From contig NZ_FYDE01000003.1 in assembly GCF_900186535.1 (NCBI RefSeq), forward strand, positions 434,001-498,000: a DNA stretch of 64,000 bases, given 5' to 3'. Below the pieces are notes generated by a model. That model had not been told where the DNA came from. It was given only the letters and a program-made list of their open reading frames with translations, and made no database searches. The DNA is from Marasmitruncus massiliensis. Its GTDB lineage: Bacteria > Bacillota > Clostridia > Oscillospirales > Ruminococcaceae. Numbering within the stretch: position 1 is the first letter of the stretch; every line of letters begins with the position of its first letter. Of the stretch, positions 9,522 to 32,203 are shown piece by piece. A program made the position numbers and the translations under genes.

Positions 9522-11054
9522 ATGGATCTGAATTTGCAAAAACAGACGGTATGCACCAGCGAAGTGATATACGACGGCGTGACAGAGCAACCGTTGGAGT
9601 GCGACGTGTTGCTGCCGGATTACTGCCCTGATATTTCAAAAATTCTGCGCTGTGAGGTCGTCCCTTCGCTGCTGTCCCACGTGGTCAGCGGCGATAAACT
9701 GTCCATTGACGGAATGGCGGTGGCACATCTTTATTATCTGAGCGAAGACGGCTGCATCCGGCATGCCGAATATAAGATCCCGTATACAAAGGTGATTGAG
9801 CTCAGAACAGCGCCGCAAAATCCCACTGCAACCATCAGTCAGACGGTGGATTATTTTAACTGCCGGGCGGTCAGCCCCCGCCGGCTGGATATGCGCGGGG
9901 CTGTCAGCGTGAATGTGCGGGTGTCCAGCCAGGTGGAGGAGCAGGTGGTTTGCGGAGGCAATGAGGCCGGGCTCCAGTTATGCCGGGAAGCTGTGGAAAA
10001 CACAAGGGTGCTTCCGCAGTCGGTTCGTCAGACAACCATTCGCGAAGAAATGGAGCTGGGAAACGGGAAACCGGCCGTGGGCAATGTCATTCGCTATTCC
10101 GCTTCCGCGGATGTGGCTGATTTCAAAGTTATTTCCGGGAAGCTGGTTACCAAAGGAGAAGCAAATGTAAAGATTATCTATCAGAGCGAAGAGGATGCGA
10201 AAAAGCTGGAGGTAATGGAATATGCGCTTCCGGTGAGCCAGATTGTTGACATGGAAGGGGTGGATGAGGACTGCAACTGCAGCGTCTGGTATGATGTCTG
10301 CGGTGTGGACATTACCCCCAAACAGAACTCAGACGGGGAAAACCGGGCTTTTTCCGTGGAGCTGGTTTTGAACGCCTGCGCGACCGCAAACCGGAGGATC
10401 AACGTGGAGGCGGTAACCGACTGTTATTCCACACAGTATGAATGCAAACAGTCCCAAAAACAGATTCCTTTTCTCAAATTGCTGAATACGGTGGACGAAA
10501 ACCATATGTATAAGGAAACCCTGGATCTTCCGCCGAATGTCAAAAGCATTATAGACCTTTGGTGCATTCCGGGTGCGGTGAACACCAGAGTGGAACCGGA
10601 TGGCGTGGTTGTGACAGGAAAACTGAATGTGTGCATGTTCGTCTATGAAGATGACGATAACATCGCTTATTTTGAGCAGATGCGCGAATACAATCAGCGG
10701 ATCCCGAACAACGATATGTCTGGTACGATACAGTTTGCGCCGGTGGTACGGGTTGGGACGGCAACCTTTACCCTATCCGGCCATGATAAGCTGGAAGTGC
10801 GTTGCGCTGCCAGAATCCGCGGCGGCATTTACAGCCTCAACCGCAAAAAGGTGATCAGTGACATCGCGGTGGATGAGTCCCGTCCCAAAACAAGACAGGA
10901 GAATGTGCTGTACCTTTATTATGCATCGGAGCAGGAACCTGTCTGGGAAATCGCTAAGCGGTACAACACCTCCGTGAATGCGATTCAGGCAGAGAATCAG
11001 CTTGAGGGCAGCGTTCTGAGCGGTAAGGCCATGCTGCTCATTCCGATGAAATAG
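9522..11054 (+). CDS. SPOCS (DUF3794) and LysM domain spore protein
   Basis: This 510-residue protein contains repeated DUF3794/SPOCS modules. The first carries ECDVLLPDYCPDISKILRCE, and related LPxxxP-type segments recur near residues 180-240 and 330-440. It ends with a LysM peptidoglycan-binding motif (residues ~462-509, WEIAKRYNTSVNAIQAEN). Such proteins are found next to spoIVA in Clostridia and are thought to act in cortex or coat assembly at the forespore surface. It has no signal peptide, as expected for a mother-cell cytoplasmic morphogenetic protein. It is the first gene of the sigma-E unit, 21 bases ahead of spoIVA. Confidence 0.85.
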   Translation: MDLNLQKQTVCTSEVIYDGVTEQPLECDVLLPDYCPDISKILRCEVVPSLLSHVVSGDKLSIDGMAVAHLYYLSEDGCIRHAEYKIPYTKVIELRTAPQNPTATISQTVDYFNCRAVSPRRLDMRGAVSVNVRVSSQVEEQVVCGGNEAGLQLCREAVENTRVLPQSVRQTTIREEMELGNGKPAVGNVIRYSASADVADFKVISGKLVTKGEANVKIIYQSEEDAKKLEVMEYALPVSQIVDMEGVDEDCNCSVWYDVCGVDITPKQNSDGENRAFSVELVLNACATANRRINVEAVTDCYSTQYECKQSQKQIPFLKLLNTVDENHMYKETLDLPPNVKSIIDLWCIPGAVNTRVEPDGVVVTGKLNVCMFVYEDDDNIAYFEQMREYNQRIPNNDMSGTIQFAPVVRVGTATFTLSGHDKLEVRCAARIRGGIYSLNRKKVISDIAVDESRPKTRQENVLYLYYASEQEPVWEIAKRYNTSVNAIQAENQLEGSVLSGKAMLLIPMK

Positions 11055-11075: not shown

Positions 11076-12317
11076 ATGGAAGCGCAGAGCATTTATCAGA
11101 ACATCGCCAAGCGAACAGGCGGTGATATTTATATCGGTGTTGTGGGGCCGGTGCGTACGGGAAAATCCACTTTTATCAAACGGTTTATGGAAACTCTGGT
11201 CATTCCGAATATCGGCAGCGAGTATGTCCGCGAACGCGCAACCGATGAATTGCCTCAGTCGTCAGCCGGCCGGACCATCATGACCACCGAACCGAAATTT
11301 ATTCCGGAAGAAGCGGTCAAGGTCTCGGTGGCGGACAACGCCGCACTCAACGTCCGGATGATCGACTGCGTAGGGTATATTGTTCCCAGTTCGCTCGGCT
11401 ACATTGAGAATAACGCGCCCAGAATGGTCATGACGCCGTGGTTTGAAAAGGAAATCCCGTTTAACATGGCGGCGGAAGTCGGAACGCAGAAGGTGATCAA
11501 TGAGCACAGCACGATCGGGCTGGTGGTAACCACGGACGGCAGCATCAGCGATATCCCGCGTGCGGAATATGAAGAAGCCGAGCAGCGCGTCATTCAGGAA
11601 CTGCAGCAGATCAATAAACCGTTCATTGTGCTGCTGAACTGCGTGGACCCCAATACGCCGTATGCGCAGCAGATGCGCACGGAAATGGAAAATAAATATC
11701 AGGTGCCTGTTGCCGCGGTAAACTGCATGGAGCTGACCGAAGAGGATATCCGGGTGATTCTGAAGGATGTACTGTTCCAGTTCCCGGTACGCGAGGTTGC
11801 AGTCAATCTTCCGGGCTGGGTAACGACCCTTGCCCCTGATCACTGGCTGCGTACGGCACTTTATAATGCTATCCGGGATGCCGCCGAACCGGTGGAACAT
11901 ATCGGCCAGCTGAAAAATCAGATGGAGAACCTGGCCAACTGCGAATATGTAAACCGCGTGGACGTGAATTCCATTGACCTGGGAACCGGCTGCGCGAAGA
12001 CTGCTGTGGAAGTGAAAAACGGCCTGTTTTATAAGATACTGGGAGAAGAGACAGGTCTGAATATTCCGGATGAAAATGCGCTCATGCCCTGTATGGTGGA
12101 GCTTGCGGGAATTAAGCGGGAATATGATAAAGTAAAATGCGCGCTGGACGAAGTCGCGGCGACCGGTTACGGAATTGTCATGCCGTCGCTGCAGGAGCTT
12201 GCGCTCGAAGAACCCGAAATTGTAAAGCAGGGCGGCCGCTATGGGGTCCGTCTCAAGGCTTCCGCACCTTCTATACATATCATATGTATCAAACAGAAAT
12301 ATAGAACCGCGACGTAA
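11076..12317 (+). CDS. spoIVA: spoIVA 5' part (interrupted coat morphogenetic ATPase)
   Basis: SpoIVA is the mother-cell ATPase that polymerises around the forespore as the base layer of the coat. A GAAAGGGGAG site precedes the ATG. Residues 1-401 match the family: Walker A GPVRTGKST, ERATDELPQSSAGRTIMTTEPKF split across the effector region, and the LVVTTDGSI and LNCVDP segments, ending in EPEIVKQGGRYGVRLKASAP-SIH. Then 12 foreign codons and a stop follow, giving 413 residues. The missing 91 residues, needed in the family for polymerisation and targeting, lie at 17465-17738. The break falls exactly at an ATACATAT core. Unless the element is excised, this product should be non-functional. Confidence 0.95.
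   Translation: MEAQSIYQNIAKRTGGDIYIGVVGPVRTGKSTFIKRFMETLVIPNIGSEYVRERATDELPQSSAGRTIMTTEPKFIPEEAVKVSVADNAALNVRMIDCVGYIVPSSLGYIENNAPRMVMTPWFEKEIPFNMAAEVGTQKVINEHSTIGLVVTTDGSISDIPRAEYEEAEQRVIQELQQINKPFIVLLNCVDPNTPYAQQMRTEMENKYQVPVAAVNCMELTEEDIRVILKDVLFQFPVREVAVNLPGWVTTLAPDHWLRTALYNAIRDAAEPVEHIGQLKNQMENLANCEYVNRVDVNSIDLGTGCAKTAVEVKNGLFYKILGEETGLNIPDENALMPCMVELAGIKREYDKVKCALDEVAATGYGIVMPSLQELALEEPEIVKQGGRYGVRLKASAPSIHIICIKQKYRTAT
12273..12298. other. attL of the spoIVA element
   Basis: Core ATACATAT at 12273-12280 is followed by the element arm catatgtatcaaacagaa (12281-12298). The inward arm at the other end, read as reverse complement, matches it at 15 of 18 positions, as expected for the two halves of a serine-integrase attP. 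Confidence 0.85.
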
Positions 12318-12369
12318 AAGAAATTCTAAATCCCGCCCGGCCTGAATAAGCTGAAACCGGGTGAGGAAA

Positions 12370-12564
12370 ATGAGAGAACAAAGAAAAGAGAATCTGAACA
12401 TTGAAACAGAAATCAAGCTGCTGATCAATCAAAGGCTATATGAAAAAAAGATCATTTCCCTTGAACTGTTTGAACAGGCAAAGGTACTGATTCTAAAACC
12501 GGTAAAAAACTGCGGTTTGACAATGAAAGGGAAGAAATCAAGGATGGAAGCAAAAAACTGTTGA
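12370..12564 (+). CDS. 64-aa charged helical protein, candidate excision partner of the recombinase
   Basis: ATG at 12370 follows a TGAGGAAA site and gives 64 mostly helical, strongly basic residues (ETEIKLLINQRLYEKKIISL, LELFEQAKVLIL). The family has no name I can give. Short ORFs with a RLYEKKIIS-like core accompany serine recombinases in Clostridia. It starts 52 bases after the stop of the truncated spoIVA on the same strand, so the sigma-E transcript of spoIVA would also express it. In the excised circle it would lie directly downstream of the recombinase. A recombination directionality factor, as SprB is for SP-beta, is a reasonable inference, not shown. Confidence 0.5.
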   Translation: MREQRKENLNIETEIKLLINQRLYEKKIISLELFEQAKVLILKPVKNCGLTMKGKKSRMEAKNC

Positions 12565-12588
12565 CAAAAATTGAAAAAGCGGTATACT
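12561..12588 (+). promoter_or_regulatory. sigma-A promoter of ilvD
   Basis: TTGACA at 12561-12566 and TATACT at 12583-12588 with a 16-base spacer precede the T-box leader. The -35 box overlaps the stop of the 64-aa ORF. Confidence 0.8.
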
Positions 12589-12597
12589 TATAAAAAA

Positions 12598-12906
12598 TAA
12601 ATACTTTAATGAAATGCAGTGACAGGGAAATTAGTATTCCAAGGCTTGCAGAGAGCTGCCGAATGGTGCAAGGCAGCAGCGGAAGTATATGAAAATCCCC
12701 CTGGAGCAGTTGGCTGAAGGGCTTTTTGCCTGTGTAAGTTTCACCGATTAACACCCGTTATCGTGTTTCTCATTGCAAGGGTTTGTCCCGGAGATGCAGA
12801 GTTGAGTGGTCATGGTTTTTAGGAAACTATGGCAATGCAGAGTGGTACCGCAGAGCGCTTTTACAGCCTTTGTCTCTCGTGATAGAGAGGCAAGGGCTTT
12901 TTATTT
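12598..12906 (+). ncRNA. T-box riboswitch leader of ilvD
   Basis: The leader has AGAGAG and the CTGCC...GGCAG apical stem of Stem I, and an AGTA (loop-E type) strand opposite GTATATGAAA in the specifier loop. The conserved T-box AGAGTGGTACCGCA lies at about 12839-12852. A terminator hairpin (about 12866-12897, stem gcctttgtctctc with agagaggcaagggc) and T run follow. Uncharged tRNA pairing would favour the antiterminator and turn on ilvD. The specifier codon could not be assigned safely. A branched-chain amino acid is expected from the gene. Confidence 0.9.
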
Positions 12907-12954
12907 TCTATTTTACTAAAATTAAAACAATATTAAATTTCAGGAGGAGTTAAA

Positions 12955-14640
12955 TTGAGCGGCATGAGAGACAGCAGGACTTTACGAAGCGATCATGTGA
13001 CAAAAGGCGCGGAGCGCGCGCCGAACCGCTGCCTGTTTTACGCGATGGGCTTTACGGATGAGGAGCTTGACCGTCCGCTGATTGGTGTTGTATCGGCGTA
13101 CAGCGAAATTGTTCCCGGCCACAGCCATCTTGACAAACTGGCTGAAGCAGTCAAGGCGGGCGTGCGTATGGCGGGGGGAACCCCGATCCTTGTCCCTGCA
13201 ATCGGGGTCTGTGACGGAATCGCCATGGGACATCAGGGCATGAAGTATTCACTGCCGTCCCGGGAACTGATTGCCGATTCGGTGGAGACTATGGCTTTGG
13301 CGCATTGCTTTGACGGGCTGGTACTGGTGCCGAACTGCGATAAAATCGTCCCCGGAATGCTGATGGCGGCGGCCCGGCTGAATATCCCGTCTATTGTGGT
13401 AAGCGGAGGCCCCATGCTGGCCGGACGGCATAACGGTGAGGAAATCAGCCTGTCCAAAATGTTTGAAGCGGTCGGCGCGAGGAAAGCGGGGATGATCGGC
13501 GATGCTGAACTTGAGCAGTTCGCGCAGGATTCCTGCCCCGGCTGCGGTTCCTGTGCAGGTATGTACACGGCCAACAGCATGAACTGCCTGTCGGAAGCCA
13601 TCGGCATGGCACTGCCCGGCAACGGAACCATCCCCGCGGTTTATTCCGCCCGGACTCAGCTTGCCAAAAAGGCCGGTATGCAGATTATGGAGCTTGTCGA
13701 CCGGGATTTGAAACCGCGCGACATCCTGACGCCGAAAGCGTTCCAGAACGCGCTTGCGGTGGATATGGCGCTTGGATGCAGCACCAACAGCGTGCTTCAT
13801 CTGCTTGCGATTGCCAACGAGGCAGGCGTTCCAATGAATCTGGAAACAATCAACGAGGTCAGCGCCAGAACCCCCAACCTCTGCCATCTGGCACCCGCCG
13901 GAAACGACCATATTCAGGACCTTTATGAAGCGGGCGGAATTCAGGCGGTTATGGCGCAGCTCGCGCAGGGCGGTTATCTGAACACCTCTTTGCCGACGGT
14001 AACCGGAAAAACAGTCGGAGAGAATGTTTCCGGAGCCGAAAACAGGAATCCAAAAGTCATCCGTACGCTGGATCAGGCCTACAGCAAGACTGGCGGGATT
14101 GCGGTGCTTTGGGGAAATCTCGCGAAAGACGGCTGCGTGGTCAAACGCTCCGCCGTATCGTCGGAAATGCTGGTGCACACAGGCCCTGCCCGCGTCTTTG
14201 ACAGTGAAGAAGAGGCAATTGACGCCATTTACAACGGAAAAATCCATCCCGGGGATGTCGTGGTGATCCGTTACGAAGGCCCCAAGGGCGGCCCCGGAAT
14301 GCGCGAAATGCTCAACCCGACTTCGGCCCTTGCCGGTATGCAGCTGGACAAGCAGGTGGCTCTGATTACAGACGGACGGTTTTCCGGCGCGTCGCGCGGC
14401 GCTTCCATCGGTCATGTGTCGCCGGAAGCGGCAGCCGGTGGGGAGATTGCCTATCTGAAAGAGGGCGACCTGATCCATATTGATATCCCAAATAACCGGA
14501 TAGACGCGGAAGTCTCGGAAGAGGAATTCGCAAAACGGAAAGCACAGTGGAGCCCGAAACAGCCGGAAGGGCTTGAAGGCTGGCTCAGCAGGTATGTGCG
14601 TCTGGTAAGTTCGGCAAATACAGGTGCGGTTTTGAAATAA
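12955..14640 (+). CDS. ilvD: dihydroxy-acid dehydratase
   Basis: This 561-residue protein begins at TTG after a CAGGAGGAG site. An ATG four codons on is the alternative. It has the IlvD/Edd signatures: [35 protein letters not shown], the cluster segment [19 protein letters not shown], and [26 protein letters not shown]. The enzyme dehydrates 2,3-dihydroxy acids to 2-oxoisovalerate or 2-oxo-3-methylvalerate in valine, isoleucine and leucine synthesis, using an Fe-S cluster (Cys residues in the NCDK and CPGCGSC segments). It is cargo of the spoIVA element, T-box controlled, and followed 21 bases later by a transporter gene. It is complete and of normal length, so apparently functional. Confidence 0.95.
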
Positions 14641-14661
14641 GAAGGATGATGGAGGGTATTT

Positions 14662-15636
14662 ATGATGGAATTTCTGAAAAAGGTAAGCAGATTTGCGGGA
14701 AAGTATATGGCATTTATCGTGCTGGTGATTGCGGCTATGGCGTTGTTTGTACCGTCTTCCCTGAGCTGGATTAAAACCAGCTACGTCAACACCCTGCTTG
14801 GAATTGTTATGTTCGGTATGGGGCTCACCTTGAAGCCGGACGACTTCAAAGTGGTATTCAGCCGTCCGAAAGACGTGTTGATCGGCTGCGTTGCCCAGTT
14901 TACAATCATGCCGCTTCTGGCGTTCCTGCTCACCAAGGTGTTCCAGCTCCCGGTAGAGCTGGCGATCGGCGTCATTCTGGTTGGAACCTGCCCCGGAGGC
15001 ACCTCTTCGAACGTCATGACCTATCTCGCCAAGGGCGATGTCGCGCTGTCCGTCGGCATGACTGCGGTTTCCACCGTGCTTGCGCCGTTTATGACTCCGC
15101 TGCTGACCTATGTTTATGCCGGCCAGCGCGTGGATGTTAATATGGTGAGCATGTTTGTCTCCATCGTTAAAGTCGTCATTGTCCCGATTGCGCTCGGCTT
15201 TGTCTTTAATAAGCTGTTTGGCAAACTGACCGAAAAACTGACCGAGGTGCTGCCGCTGGTTTCCGTTACCGCGATTGTCGCGATTGTGGCTGCCGTTGTC
15301 TCTGCGAACTCCGCGAAAATTCTCACCAGCGGCCTGCTGATCGTCGCGGTTGTCATGCTGCACAACATGCTCGGCTATGCCTGCGGTTACGGTCTCGGAA
15401 AGCTGCTGAAAATGGGAGACCCCAAATGCAATGCCGTCGCAATCGAGGTCGGGATGCAGAACTCCGGCCTTGCGACCTCGCTTGCCGCGACCCACTTCGC
15501 GGCAATGCCGCTTGCGACAATTCCCGGCGCGGTATTCAGCGTCTGGCATAATATCTCCGGTTCCATTGTTGCGAACCTGATGGCTTCCAAAGCGGAGAAA
15601 AAATTGAAAGTGGTTTCTGATCAGGTGACTGCCTGA
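14662..15636 (+). CDS. BASS-family (bile acid:Na+ symporter-like) transporter
   Basis: This 324-residue protein has about 9-10 membrane segments. Family hallmarks are GIVMFGMGLTLKPDDF in the first third, LVGTCPGGTSSNVMTYLAKG-DVALSV at the ion-binding crossover, and IEVGMQNSGLATSLAATHF near residue 265. BASS proteins use sodium gradients to move organic anions. Bacterial members include the ketopantoate exporter/importer PanS, and plant members carry pyruvate or 2-oxo acids. Sitting directly behind ilvD under the same T-box suggests a branched-chain 2-oxo acid or pantoate precursor as substrate (inference). A GGATGATGGAGG site precedes the ATG, and a terminator follows. Confidence 0.88.
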   Translation: MMEFLKKVSRFAGKYMAFIVLVIAAMALFVPSSLSWIKTSYVNTLLGIVMFGMGLTLKPDDFKVVFSRPKDVLIGCVAQFTIMPLLAFLLTKVFQLPVELAIGVILVGTCPGGTSSNVMTYLAKGDVALSVGMTAVSTVLAPFMTPLLTYVYAGQRVDVNMVSMFVSIVKVVIVPIALGFVFNKLFGKLTEKLTEVLPLVSVTAIVAIVAAVVSANSAKILTSGLLIVAVVMLHNMLGYACGYGLGKLLKMGDPKCNAVAIEVGMQNSGLATSLAATHFAAMPLATIPGAVFSVWHNISGSIVANLMASKAEKKLKVVSDQVTA

Positions 15637-15665
15637 CGGAATGATAAGGATCATTCCATGATCGA

Positions 15666-15712
15666 GGCTGGGGAAGGAATGCGGTCAAGTGTTCCTTCCC
15701 CGGCTGATTTTT
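15666..15712 (+). terminator. terminator after ilvD-transporter unit
   Basis: A ~12-bp stem (ctggggaaggaa / gttccttccccgg) is followed by a T run. It separates the cargo operon from the recombinase gene. Confidence 0.85.
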
Positions 15713-15748
15713 TAGGCGATTTGGGTTTTGGTGTTCACTTTGGTATTA

Positions 15749-15775
15749 ATATTTTTCTTTTGTGTTACATATAAA
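15749..15775 (+). promoter_or_regulatory. sigma-E-like promoter of the recombinase
   Basis: ATATT at 15749-15753 and CATATAAA at 15768-15775 with a 14-base spacer match the same pattern and spacing as the promoter at 9461-9489. It lies 42 bases before the recombinase ATG. No good sigma-A pair is seen in this 150-base gap. Confidence 0.6.
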
Positions 15776-15816
15776 AGAATAGCATGTACCGAAAAGAAGT
15801 ACTTAGGGGTGAACAT

Positions 15817-17466
15817 ATGGATCTGTATGACATCCGGAATCAACTCAACGGAGGGAAATCGATTTATGATCTGCATCTGCGGGTAACTTTTTACGCAAGA
15901 GTATCAACAGATAAGGATGAGCAGCTTCATTCCCTGCAAGCCCAGATTCAATATTATTCGGATTTGATCACCGGAACTCCAAACTGGACGTTTGTTGACG
16001 GCTATATCGACGAAGGGATCAGCGGCACAAGCGTCAAGAAGCGAGAGAGTTTTTTAAACATGATTGAGGATGCGAGGCTGAAAAAATTCGACTTCATCAT
16101 TACGAAAGAAATCAGCCGCTTTTCCCGAAACACCGTTGACAGTATCCAATATACGCAGCAGCTGTTAAGCTATGGGGTGGGCGTTCTATTTCAGTCGGAC
16201 AATATCAATACGCTCATGCCGGACTCCGAACTGCGCCTGACAATTATGTCCTCGATTGCCCAGGATGAAGTTCGAAAAACTTCCGAACGTGTAAAATTCG
16301 GGTTTAAGCGTGCGATCGAAAAAGGTGTGGTCCTGGGCAACAACCGGATCTGGGGCTATGTGAAGGATAACGGGCGGCTGGTGGTTGTTGAAAAAGAGGC
16401 AAAACTGATTCAAAAAATTTTTACCATGTACGCAGTGGACGGCCTTGGGATGCGCTCTATTTGTAACTGGCTGACAGAACACGGCATCAAAAATACAAAA
16501 GGGAACGATTTTTCATTCAGTACCATCAAGGGTATTTTGACCAACCCGAAATACAAAGGCTACTACTGTGGCGGAAAGACACATAAATATGACTACAAGC
16601 TCAGCAATGTCAGATACCTTGACCCGACAGAGTGGAAGCTGTACAAAGATGAAACGGGAAGCATTGTGCCTGCGATTGTCAGCGAAGAACTGTGGGAGAA
16701 AGCCAATTCCATTTTACAAACCCGCAGCGCCCGGCAAAGTGCAGAGAATAAAACGAGCTATCAGAATCAATATTCTTTCAGCGGCAAGGTCATCTGTACC
16801 GAACATCAGACGCCTTATTATCGGGCATGCTATCGGTATCCTTCAGGAAGCAAAGAAGTCTGGCAGTGCAGAAAATATACGGAGCAAGGAAAAGCCGGCT
16901 GCAATTCTCCAATTGTTTATACTTCGGAGCTGAATGAAGCGTTGCGGCAGGTAGTTGGACGTGTGGTTCATAATCAAGCCGGAATCATGGAAGATCTGAT
17001 CGGGATCTATTCGGAAATTGACAGCCAGTCAAACGTGCAGGCGGAAATCCTCAGGCAGGAATCGCTGGTGTATGAAATCTCTCAAAAAAAAGACAAATTA
17101 CTTGATTTAAGCATGAAAGGCAGACTGTCTGATAACGAATTTGAAGTTCGGAACAATCAATTCAATGTGGAGCTTTCCGATCTGCAGAACAGGATTGCCG
17201 GCTTGCGGCAGCAGGAGGCTCAAAACAGGGGGCAATCTTTGCCGGCCGAAGAACTGCGCGGTTTGATCGCTGAGGAGCTGAATTTTGAGGATGGCTTCAA
17301 CAATCAAATCGTGGACAGCCTGCTGGAGCGGATTGAGGTTGACCACACAGATCAAAAAAATGAAATCAGGCTGAAAATAATACTGAAAGTAATCCCGGAA
17401 AAGCTCCTTTTTCTAATCCGGCGCGCCCGTTCAGAGACTTCTGTTTGTTACATACCATACATATGA
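15817..17466 (+). CDS. large serine recombinase of the spoIVA element
   Basis: ATG at 15817 is preferred because AGGGGTG lies upstream. ATG at 15784 would add 11 residues without a ribosome site. The 549 residues show the resolvase catalytic domain (YARVSTD with Ser30, IDEGISGTSVKKRESF, TKEISRFSRNTVD). The recombinase domain follows (GYVKDNGRLVVVEKEAKLIQ..., GILTNPKYKGYY), then a zinc-ribbon-like region (CTEHQTPYYRACYRY, QCRKYTEQGKAGCNSP), and a coiled coil at about 420-510. Layout is that of SpoIVCA/skin and TnpX-type enzymes. Its last codons and stop run through the attR core, so excision would replace its stop and add 21 residues before the next one. Confidence 0.95.
   Translation: MDLYDIRNQLNGGKSIYDLHLRVTFYARVSTDKDEQLHSLQAQIQYYSDLITGTPNWTFVDGYIDEGISGTSVKKRESFLNMIEDARLKKFDFIITKEISRFSRNTVDSIQYTQQLLSYGVGVLFQSDNINTLMPDSELRLTIMSSIAQDEVRKTSERVKFGFKRAIEKGVVLGNNRIWGYVKDNGRLVVVEKEAKLIQKIFTMYAVDGLGMRSICNWLTEHGIKNTKGNDFSFSTIKGILTNPKYKGYYCGGKTHKYDYKLSNVRYLDPTEWKLYKDETGSIVPAIVSEELWEKANSILQTRSARQSAENKTSYQNQYSFSGKVICTEHQTPYYRACYRYPSGSKEVWQCRKYTEQGKAGCNSPIVYTSELNEALRQVVGRVVHNQAGIMEDLIGIYSEIDSQSNVQAEILRQESLVYEISQKKDKLLDLSMKGRLSDNEFEVRNNQFNVELSDLQNRIAGLRQQEAQNRGQSLPAEELRGLIAEELNFEDGFNNQIVDSLLERIEVDHTDQKNEIRLKIILKVIPEKLLFLIRRARSETSVCYIPYI
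17439..17464. other. attR of the spoIVA element
   Basis: The element arm ttctgtttgttacatacc (17439-17456) abuts core ATACATAT (17457-17464), after which spoIVA resumes with GATGGCCGCC. The arm is the inverted partner of the attL arm. Confidence 0.85.
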
Positions 17467-17738
17467 TGGCCGCCAATATCACCACGGAAGTTTCCCCGAT
17501 AGTAGGCAGCGAAAAGCAGAGCGAAGAATTGGTGCGTTACCTGCTGCATGAGTTCGAGGAAAGCCCGCAGAAAATCTGGGAAAGCAATATTTTCGGCAAA
17601 AGCCTGCATGAACTGGTCAATGAAGGTTTGCACAACAAACTGAACCGGATGCCCGGCGATGCCAGAATGAAGCTCCAGGAAACCATTGAACGTATCATCA
17701 ATGAAGGCTGCACAGGGCTTATCTGCATTATTATCTAG
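17465..17738 (+). CDS. spoIVA: spoIVA 3' part (C-terminal 91 residues)
   Basis: The reading continues SpoIVA exactly where the 5' part stops: MMAANITTEVSPIVGSEKQS, then KIWESNIFGKSLHELVNEGL and the closing INEGCTGLICIII. This C-terminal region in the family contributes to polymerisation and to localisation with SpoVM. The codons have no obvious start site of their own, and the first ATG lacks a ribosome site. It probably makes protein only after rejoining to 11076-12280. The sequence is conserved and free of stops, in contrast to the decayed second copy at 31963-32150. That suggests it is under selection in the rejoined gene. Confidence 0.93.
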
Positions 17739-17801
17739 CGGCGCAGATTGGTCCATTGGCGCGGCAAGGCGCTTCCGCAATTCAGCGGAAGCGCCTTTTA
17801 T
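17613..17801. repeat. left copy of spoIVA 3'-end direct repeat
   Basis: 189 bases covering the last ~42 codons of spoIVA and its terminator recur at 31963-32150 with 10 mismatches and one deleted base. Together the copies bracket a 14-kb island. Confidence 0.9.
17767..17799 (+). terminator. spoIVA terminator
   Basis: An 11-bp stem (aggcgcttccg / cggaagcgcct) with an 8-base loop and TTTT follows the spoIVA stop by 28 bases. Confidence 0.9.
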
Positions 17802-17813
17802 TTAATTCATTCG

Positions 17814-18143
17814 TTAAAAGTGGCTGCATTTTTTCGTTGGTTTTCTCCCTATGCTGTGTTTGCTGAAATCATCATCGATACCCAGTTCCCTGCATACCTG
17901 ATCAATGATGGCGTCTTTTTGTAATTTGATGAATCTGCTGTACACCGTTTGCCATGGCCCATATCTTTCCGGCAGGTCCCGCCAGGCAGCCCCGCTTTTT
18001 AAAATCCATAAAATAGCGTTCAACATTTTCTGATTGTCCTTCTTTGGACGGCCCTTTTGTCCGGTCCGTTCGGGGGGCAGCAGATTTTTTATATTTTCCC
18101 ACTGTGTGTCGGTAAGTTCATAACGTCTTTGAAAGGTTGACAT
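17814..18143 (-). pseudogene. IS5-family transposase fragment
   Basis: This 109-residue frame starts well (RRYELTDTQWENIKNLLPP, GRPKKDNQKMLNAILWILKS, GAAWRDLPERYGPWQTVYSRF), which is the N-terminal helix-turn-helix half of IS5/IS1380-like transposases. It then ends in an unrelated basic tail instead of the DDE catalytic domain. No matching second ORF or terminal inverted repeats were found nearby. It is a remnant abutting the first spoIVA tail copy, at the left border of the 14-kb island, and may mark how that segment was brought in or trimmed. Confidence 0.8.
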
Positions 18144-31962: not shown

Positions 31963-32150
31963 CTGGTGAATGAAGGTCTGCACAACAACTGAACCGGATG
32001 CCCGGCGATGCCAGAATGAAACTTCAGGAAACCATTGAACGTATCATCGATGAAGGCTGCACAGAGTTTATCTGCATTATGATCTGGCGGCGCAGATTGG
32101 TCCATTGGCGCAGCAAGGCGCTTCCGCAATTCAGCGGAAGCGCCTTTTAT
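31963..32150 (+). pseudogene. spoIVA: decayed second copy of the spoIVA 3' end and terminator
   Basis: 188 bases align with 17613-17801 at about 94% identity. One base is lost in the codon run for HNKL, which shifts the frame, and the stop TAG has become TGG. The terminator hairpin is unchanged. No spoIVA sequence precedes it. It is the distal border of the island that starts after the first copy. Confidence 0.9.
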
Positions 32151-32203
32151 AGAATTGATTCCTTTTTTGACAATTGCGCGGCGAACAGGACGGTCTGCTC
32201 TTA

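Follow-up and report, generated by a model that had tools for sequence, protein, structure and literature searches.

In a 64-kb window of the Marasmitruncus massiliensis genome (64,000 nucleotides of contig NZ_FYDE01000003.1; coordinates below are those of this window unless another locus is named), the sporulation gene spoIVA is split by a 5,184-bp element that encodes a large serine recombinase (LSR). We regard this as probably a skin-like intervening element that is excised during sporulation and carries metabolic cargo instead of phage genes. The two parts of spoIVA lie on the plus strand. The 5′ part (11076-12280, including the left core) matches PF09547, PF20438 and positions 1-404 of the 492-position TIGR02836 profile, and the 3′ part (17465-17738) matches PF20439 (E 1.4e-38) and positions 399-492; by the Pfam and NCBIfam assignments the former holds the ATPase and middle domains of SpoIVA and the latter its C-terminal domain. 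As it stands, the 5′ open reading frame (11076-12317) has 413 codons, for 401 native residues followed by IICIKQKYRTAT.

The core ATACATAT occurs at both joints, at 12273-12280 (attL) and 17457-17464 (attR), both on the plus strand; the element interrupts the coding sequence of a sporulation gene and is flanked by short direct repeats. Joining 11076-12280 to 17465-17738 gives 1,479 nt, or 492 codons plus a stop. The rebuilt protein aligned without gaps to 13 of 14 other restored SpoIVA proteins, with a single gap opening against the remaining one (G476, 494 residues). The coordinates, the join and the profile matches thus bear out the split, the shared cores and the restored frame given in a preliminary description of this locus. 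That description held that a second complete spoIVA in the genome would overturn it; searches of the whole genome returned a single N-terminal half, a single C-terminal half and a degenerate remnant, 34 codons long, from the 3′ end (31983-32084), and no second complete gene was found.

Attachment sites and recombinase of the element

The core word occurs five times in the window (0.97 expected), and the core alone is weak evidence; we therefore sought stronger evidence in the junction of the circularised element. This junction reads TTCTGTTTG-TTACATACC-ATACATAT-CATATGTAT-CAAACAGAA, and 19 of its 24 base pairs are symmetric about the central CA, the best score among the centres tried and one reached by none of 20,000 shuffles. 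No comparable symmetry was found at attL (8 of 24), attR (10) or the rebuilt attB (9) of the window. A dyad about a central dinucleotide in a site of ∼50 bp is the form expected of an LSR attP, and here it exists only when the two ends of the element, 5 kb apart, are joined; the CA is the inferred crossover dinucleotide. The half-site TCAAACAGAAA (12289-12299, plus strand) is mirrored by ACAAACAGAAG (17438-17448, minus strand), and the pattern WCAAACAGAAR matches just these two half-sites in the 64 kb (0.21 expected).

LSRs are recognised by a YARVS serine motif and an SRFSRN motif in the catalytic domain, followed by a recombinase domain, a zinc ribbon and a coiled coil. The 549-aa product of 15817-17466 (plus strand) has this architecture (Pfam Resolvase, Recombinase and Zn_ribbon domains; PHROG 95, integrase), and the element thus encodes a site-specific recombinase, the gene for which needs the spoIVA side of attR to complete its TGA stop. 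Its best Foldseek matches were the serine integrases 9y66 (E 3e-22) and 9dxd (E 4e-22), both full-length at low template-modelling (TM) scores of 0.25-0.36. The model (predicted local distance difference test score 79.8, predicted TM score 0.37) has long helices at residues 406-433 and 439-472, and S30, R28, R101, R104, C327, C351 and C362 are invariant among the 13 sequences compared.

Split spoIVA genes in other genomes

The preliminary description treated the locus as a single case; it proved instead to be a member of a family with three insertion sites. A search with the LSR against one genome per species (84,980 species) returned eight loci, among them a 6.3-kb element that splits spoIVA of Ruminiclostridium papyrosolvens C7 at the site used in the window, and two loci in Desulfosporosinus (L084 and L085, 36-40%). 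We then searched with SpoIVA in 148 genomes of the family (128 with a match), 346 of the order (328), 11 of the window's genus (11) and 11 of the genus Ruminiclostridium (11), and with LSRs in the family sample and in 391 genomes of the class. Over all samples, spoIVA is split in at least 21 genomes, counting once each the pairs G474 and G713 (the same by coordinates) and G477 and G826. The family sample contributed two (G000, G029) and the order sample at least four (G000, G148, G264, G376), where the follow-up covered those genomes, among the matches listed, that had two matches or a weak one, so that some splits may be missed. The split was present in 4 of 11 genomes of the window's genus (G000, G858, G859, G861) and in 6 of 11 of Ruminiclostridium (G537, G612, G674, G713, G830, G865), the other five in the latter genus being intact; further split genomes are G029, G148, G264, G376, G475, G476, G477, G497, G650, G775 and G823. 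The uninterrupted alleles that the preliminary description proposed to look for are found in the seven remaining genomes of the window's genus (77-82% identical), and the empty site therefore exists.

Both halves of the gene were located in 16 genomes, and in ten of these, including the window's, they lie on one contig (three are single-contig assemblies). G497, G650, G775 and G823 were counted from a 3′ part beside an LSR gene, and the 3′ part of G859 is a contig-end fragment. Apparent splits in which the gene breaks elsewhere (G162, G314, G334), weak second matches (G231, G279) and contig-end fragments or breaks elsewhere in the family sample (G007, G009, G027) were not counted; G266, whose match starts at a contig end close to the joint, and the contig-end fragments of G233 and G392 were also left out. 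In the class-wide search, eight of the nine best LSR matches besides the window's own lay directly before a spoIVA 3′ part, and the ninth (G826) is apparently the same genome as G477, with which it shares a contig number and the LSR end, and is split too. A type B LSR (see below) as query in the class sample found one further close relative (62%), which is also in spoIVA (G650).

The elements enter at three crossover sites within 48 bp of spoIVA. Site 1, at the CA of codon 401, is used by type A elements, including that of the window; site 2, at the GA of codon 410 and 27 bp downstream, by type B elements; and site 3, at the TC of codon 417 and 48 bp downstream of site 1, by the G858 element only. 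No LSR was found in the four pieces of the G858 element that were read (partial coverage), and site 3 rests on its dyad and frame. G476 carries one element of each type, A and B, with a combined length of 89 kb, and removal of both yields its 494-residue SpoIVA. All 16 rebuildable junctions restored the frame, each giving 492 residues from the aligned start except in G476, while the shared core ranged from 2 bp (G029) to 15 bp (G264). Circle-junction dyads of other type A elements scored 22, 20, 18 and 17 of 24, and those of type B elements 20, 18, 17 and 13, the 13 (G476) tying with another centre (p 0.0055). Nine junctions scored together gave dyads of 13-22, compared with 6-13 at the highest for their attL, attR and attB sites; dyads were also scored for G475 (14) and for G858 (18, against at most 10 at attL and 11 at attR).

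A tree of 36 LSRs sets the 15 type A enzymes apart by one branch (100/99) and the five type B enzymes by another (100/100). Type A is joined at 92/86 by the recombinase of a sigK skin element from the same family (G038, L066), and these three unite at 97/99, which suggests that a set of related LSRs favours sporulation genes. The G038 element spans 6 kb between sigK parts at L066 7194-7511 and 13629-14246, with its recombinase convergent with the sigK 5′ part; by eye, it carries genes for a MATE pump and an amino-acid ABC transporter, and nothing obviously phage-derived was seen.

The joint between recombinase gene and spoIVA differs between the two types. In five Ruminiclostridium elements the LSR frame continues through the circle junction for ∼34 residues (TNRSVIVTRGGTGTTKPHDFIFNVQI...), and in a ten-sequence comparison this tail matched the C-termini of type A LSRs that stop before the core (G823, E 4e-4; G775, 0.003; G477, 0.009; G376, 2.5). 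Summed over ten genome pairs, the tail frame showed 44 synonymous and 46 non-synonymous codon differences, whereas these ratios were 21:55 and 5:59 for the other frames. Because of these matches and this codon pattern, attP probably lies inside the LSR gene of these elements, and integration would cut off the tail and leave a TGA stop that the spoIVA side completes. In the window the corresponding tail would have 21 residues and is not similar, the type A element of G476 has no tail, and the window LSR ends at the joint in a frame that differs from that of the spoIVA 3′ part. All five type B LSRs read run in frame into the SpoIVA C-terminal domain. A possible, if speculative, interpretation is that integration into spoIVA swaps the ends of two genes, the LSR losing its tail at site 1 or gaining the SpoIVA C-terminal domain at site 2. 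The integrated enzyme could thereby differ from the circular one in direction or partner, and a small protein made from the transcript of the interrupted gene could serve as the local trigger, so that the switch would be encoded in the host-element junction itself.

The tails that the elements add to truncated SpoIVA were read from the window (12281-12317) and from L078, L117, L120, L122, L123, L126, L062, L116, L125, L191-L195, L197 and L201. Their sequences differ, yet alanine is the last residue in 11 of 13 tails of type A and in all four of type B, the exceptions being those of the window (ending TAT) and of G475. Such an end, if degron-like, could serve to remove the useless SpoIVA fragment.

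In the five split Ruminiclostridium genomes compared, the 93-codon 3′ part has a ratio of non-synonymous to synonymous substitution rates (dN/dS) of 0-0.014 at dS values of 0.22-1.01, compared with 0.021-0.055 for the 5′ part and 0.052-0.086 for the LSR, and the detached 3′ part is thus probably used in these genomes. Since it has no visible start of its own (the LSR stops at the joint) and is nevertheless strongly constrained, regular restoration explains it best. In G612, which we take to be R. cellulolyticum H10, the only spoIVA found is split. The spoIVA of R. cellulolyticum H10 appears among genes omitted from annotation and newly identified (Galperin et al. 2012, PMC3533761, section 7, Table 2; here and below, papers given by PMC number are cited from excerpts), and the terms skin, interrupted and recombinase are absent from that text as excerpted. 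Wild-type C. cellulolyticum showed a heat survival of 35.7 ± 7.3% in a sporulation assay (PMC3936895), and SpoIVA is reported to be essential for heat-resistant spores in C. sporogenes (PMC11076785). If the identity of G612 is right, a species in which only a split spoIVA was found makes resistant spores.

Proposed excision and its alternatives

Two features of the window element bear on how excision might be controlled. The first is a 64-aa protein, a candidate recombination directionality factor, encoded at 12370-12564 (plus strand) and starting 52 nt after the stop of truncated spoIVA. Of 16 type A elements searched, 15 encode homologues sharing the pattern K(L/I)xINxxLYEKGxITxEMYxxAK; none was found in the pieces of G859. 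Beside type B LSRs the similarity is weaker (four by tblastn, E 0.002-0.086; G029 by eye). SHOCT_2 matched three of these relatives at E 0.006-0.011, below the cut-off, and did not match the window protein. The second is a sigma-E-like site, AATATT-N14-CATATAAA (15748-15775, plus strand), upstream of the recombinase gene, which scores 13 against the sigma-E consensus, a value equalled by none of 300 shuffles. A sigma-E promoter common to the recombinases was considered and rejected, as a scan of the other elements found none. In four of the five short Ruminiclostridium elements the attP half-site CAAACAGAAGT occurs in the leader of the recombinase gene (L078 7972, L192 5097, L193 4737, L194 5060; L191 is without it), which suggests that the recombinase binds and regulates its own promoter.

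In the mechanism that we propose, the LSR would integrate the circular element by recombining attP with an attB inside spoIVA, with the crossover, as read from the anatomy, at the CA of codon 401. A growing cell would carry the element passively and gain ilvD and a transporter. In a sporulating cell the LSR, probably aided by the 64-aa protein, would recombine attL with attR, releasing a 5,184-bp circle and restoring spoIVA exactly; the mother cell would then make full SpoIVA with its C-terminal domain and die, and the forespore would retain the element and pass it on. For the window alone, where the small gene follows truncated spoIVA directly and in the same orientation, we propose that the spoIVA promoter would also drive this gene, so that the interrupted gene would induce the factor for its own repair. 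The view that a functional gene results from excision is supported by the recurrence of the split in at least 21 genomes, by the 16 in-frame junctions and by purifying selection on the 3′ part in the five Ruminiclostridium genomes.

Several points weigh against developmental excision in the window strain. Its occurrence there, its timing, its mother-cell specificity and a sigma-E trigger are things we infer from sequence, and selection was measured in lineages other than that of the window, and the link between G612 and a spore-forming strain depends on a tentative identification of G612. The proportion of non-synonymous sites that differ (pN) between the window 3′ part and those of three congeners is 0.072-0.091, compared with 0.064-0.068 in two pairs among these congeners. 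The sigma-E-like site fits its consensus loosely and has no clear counterpart in the other elements scanned, and five of six Ruminiclostridium LSR genes have a sigma-A-like TTGACA-N16-TATAAT promoter instead. The position of the small open reading frame differs among elements, so that a trigger through the spoIVA operon cannot be general. Finally, two LSR genes of this group accompany an intact spoIVA: a truncated type A gene (312 aa), which falls among the type A enzymes in the tree, directly behind spoIVA in a Defluviitaleaceae metagenome-assembled genome (G478, L082 6385-8948), perhaps the relic of a lost element, and another gene of the group (78% over 158 residues) at a contig end in G479, where spoIVA is intact elsewhere.

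One alternative is slow, steady excision, or reversible excision in growing cells, with sporulation open only to element-free cells, a filter resembling phase variation. The sigma-A-like promoters in Ruminiclostridium would suit it, and the yin element in yabG of C. botulinum is excised at all time points (PMC10747680). However, loss of the element before spore formation would be expected to give element-free spores and hence its disappearance from the lineage, yet five Ruminiclostridium genomes keep it with strongly constrained halves, and in C. difficile a constitutive LSR is confined to the mother cell by a directionality factor under sigma-E control (PMC5025042). We consider this alternative unlikely, though it retains an appreciable probability.

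It is more doubtful still that the insertion is dead, that is, that spoIVA is inactivated, the strain no longer makes proper spores and the clean frame merely reflects precise integration. Precise integration alone would explain the anatomy of the window, the slightly greater divergence of its 3′ part from those of its congeners would fit, and the strain is only presumed to sporulate. However, the split recurs across genomes, and the dN/dS of the 3′ part is near zero in split Ruminiclostridium. The window 3′ part keeps an open frame down to its stop and has diverged less than the 5′ part (pN 0.125-0.147 to congeners), and sigK appears intact.

There is very little likelihood that truncated SpoIVA functions alone, or with a separate C-terminal fragment, so that excision would be unneeded. 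At site 2 the LSR runs in frame into the SpoIVA C-terminal domain, and a fusion fragment could be made, but the window LSR stops at the joint in another frame, the halves are exactly joinable at all rebuildable junctions, and the C-terminal domain is reported to bind SpoVM (PMC11076785). That assembly fused unrelated contigs is scarcely credible: several relatives are fragmented assemblies with the halves on separate contigs, but ten genomes have both halves on one contig and the frame agrees throughout.

Cargo, surroundings and known intervening elements

The window element carries two metabolic genes between the small gene and the recombinase gene, both on the plus strand. ilvD (12955-14640), for dihydroxy-acid dehydratase, scores 797 bits with TIGR00110 (cut-off 618) and is preceded by a T-box leader (12610-12880, plus strand; RF00230, E 6.1e-21) whose 92.7 bits are just under the gathering score of 93, so that it is not listed at that threshold. 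Aligned to the Rfam consensus, its specifier position reads AUC, hinting at control of ilvD by tRNA-Ile. The second gene (14662-15636) encodes a BASS/SBF-family transporter (PF01758) nearest to PanS (NF047939, 298 bits, under the cut-off of 400). IlvD leads to precursors of valine, leucine and pantothenate, and the two genes may share a keto-acid theme. A sole copy of ilvD as the reason for keeping the element was not upheld, for the genome has further homologues: one (C3) is 39% identical, scores 592 bits with TIGR00110 and may also be a dihydroxy-acid dehydratase, and another (C4) is 44% identical. A close ilvD (E 1e-200 or better) was seen in only 4 of 11 genomes of the genus (G000, G857, G858, G861); G000, G858 and G861 also have a split spoIVA.

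A prophage was considered and rejected: among the four element proteins scanned, only the LSR matches PHROG, Pfam gives no other phage gene, and no structural or replication genes were found. A scan of viral contigs with the window LSR gave a single relative (26%). None of 421 matching phage records reached 60% identity to the LSR (the 12 listed are at most 42%), nor did any of the best 5000 plasmid records (the 12 listed are below 35%). Elsewhere in the genome (C2, L072 5565-9664) a second mobile element has two serine recombinase genes close together, one of them 34% identical to the spoIVA LSR.

Cargo of the other elements was read by eye. The short Ruminiclostridium elements carry AgrB-like and sensor-kinase-like genes, joined in those that were read by one for a dockerin-type protein (none was seen in G865); G264 carries an anion permease; and G376, G537 and G476 carry tens of kilobases of transport, metabolic and secreted-protein genes. 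Non-metabolic cargo includes a relaxase-like open reading frame on the G477 LSR contig and two tyrosine-recombinase-like ones on the G029 side.

Upstream of spoIVA in the window, a SPOCS-domain (SipL-like) gene (9522-11054, plus strand; Pfam SipL, PF12673, E 1.7e-31) ends 21 nt before the spoIVA start and probably forms one transcription unit with it. Directly behind spoIVA lies an IS5-family transposase fragment (109 aa; 17814-18143, minus strand). A direct repeat of 178 nt (17638-17815 and 31987-32164, 93% identical) consists of the spoIVA 3′ end and the adjoining stretch, with the degenerate second copy 14.3 kb downstream, as though an insertion or duplication had produced the intervening DNA; the region downstream of spoIVA varies among six congeners compared.

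Among known systems, the nearest is skin in sigK (B. subtilis, C. difficile, and G038 here), which likewise splits a sporulation gene, contains an LSR and restores the gene exactly. It differs in its target, whereas the window element has a spoIVA target, metabolic rather than prophage cargo and an excision that is still putative. The C. difficile skin uses an LSR and a 72-aa directionality factor, CD1234, under sigma-E and SpoIIID (PMC5025042); the 64-aa window protein recalls CD1234 in size and setting. The gin element in gerE of B. cereus ATCC 10987 (PMC5595907) is also non-phage, lies in a sporulation gene and has an LSR with an extra factor, but it spans 28.6 kb and has three LSR genes and a 9-bp consensus in gerE, in contrast to 5.2 kb and one LSR in the spoIVA element. 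The yin element (PMC10747680) is likewise a clostridial intervening element in a sporulation gene, but is prophage-like and reported to be unique to one strain, whereas elements in spoIVA are found in several genera. SP-beta in spsM, vfbin in spoVFB and vrin in spoVR belong to the same class with other target genes; SP-beta is excised only in the mother cell during sporulation and, unlike the spoIVA element, is an active phage (PMC4191935).

The targets described in the excerpted literature are sigK, spsM, spoVFB, spoVR, gerE and yabG. In a literature search that lay mostly outside subscription papers and did not include the survey of Abe et al. 2013, we recognised no spoIVA element; where spoIVA was named beside such terms in the excerpts, it was as a target of a clustered regularly interspaced short palindromic repeats (CRISPR) spacer or as an expression change. 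If confirmed, spoIVA would join the short list of developmentally rebuilt genes as one entered at three nearby sites, and two LSR groups with a dyad attP would offer natural systems for how serine recombinases choose direction in one cell type. Because the cargo in the window and in several relatives is that of everyday metabolism, a gene for the spore coat may also serve as a point of entry for adaptive islands. We conclude that the class of mechanism is known, that its novelty appears to lie in the target gene, the recurrent splits, the three insertion sites, the cargo and an attP within the recombinase gene, and that by target and content these elements are a new family.

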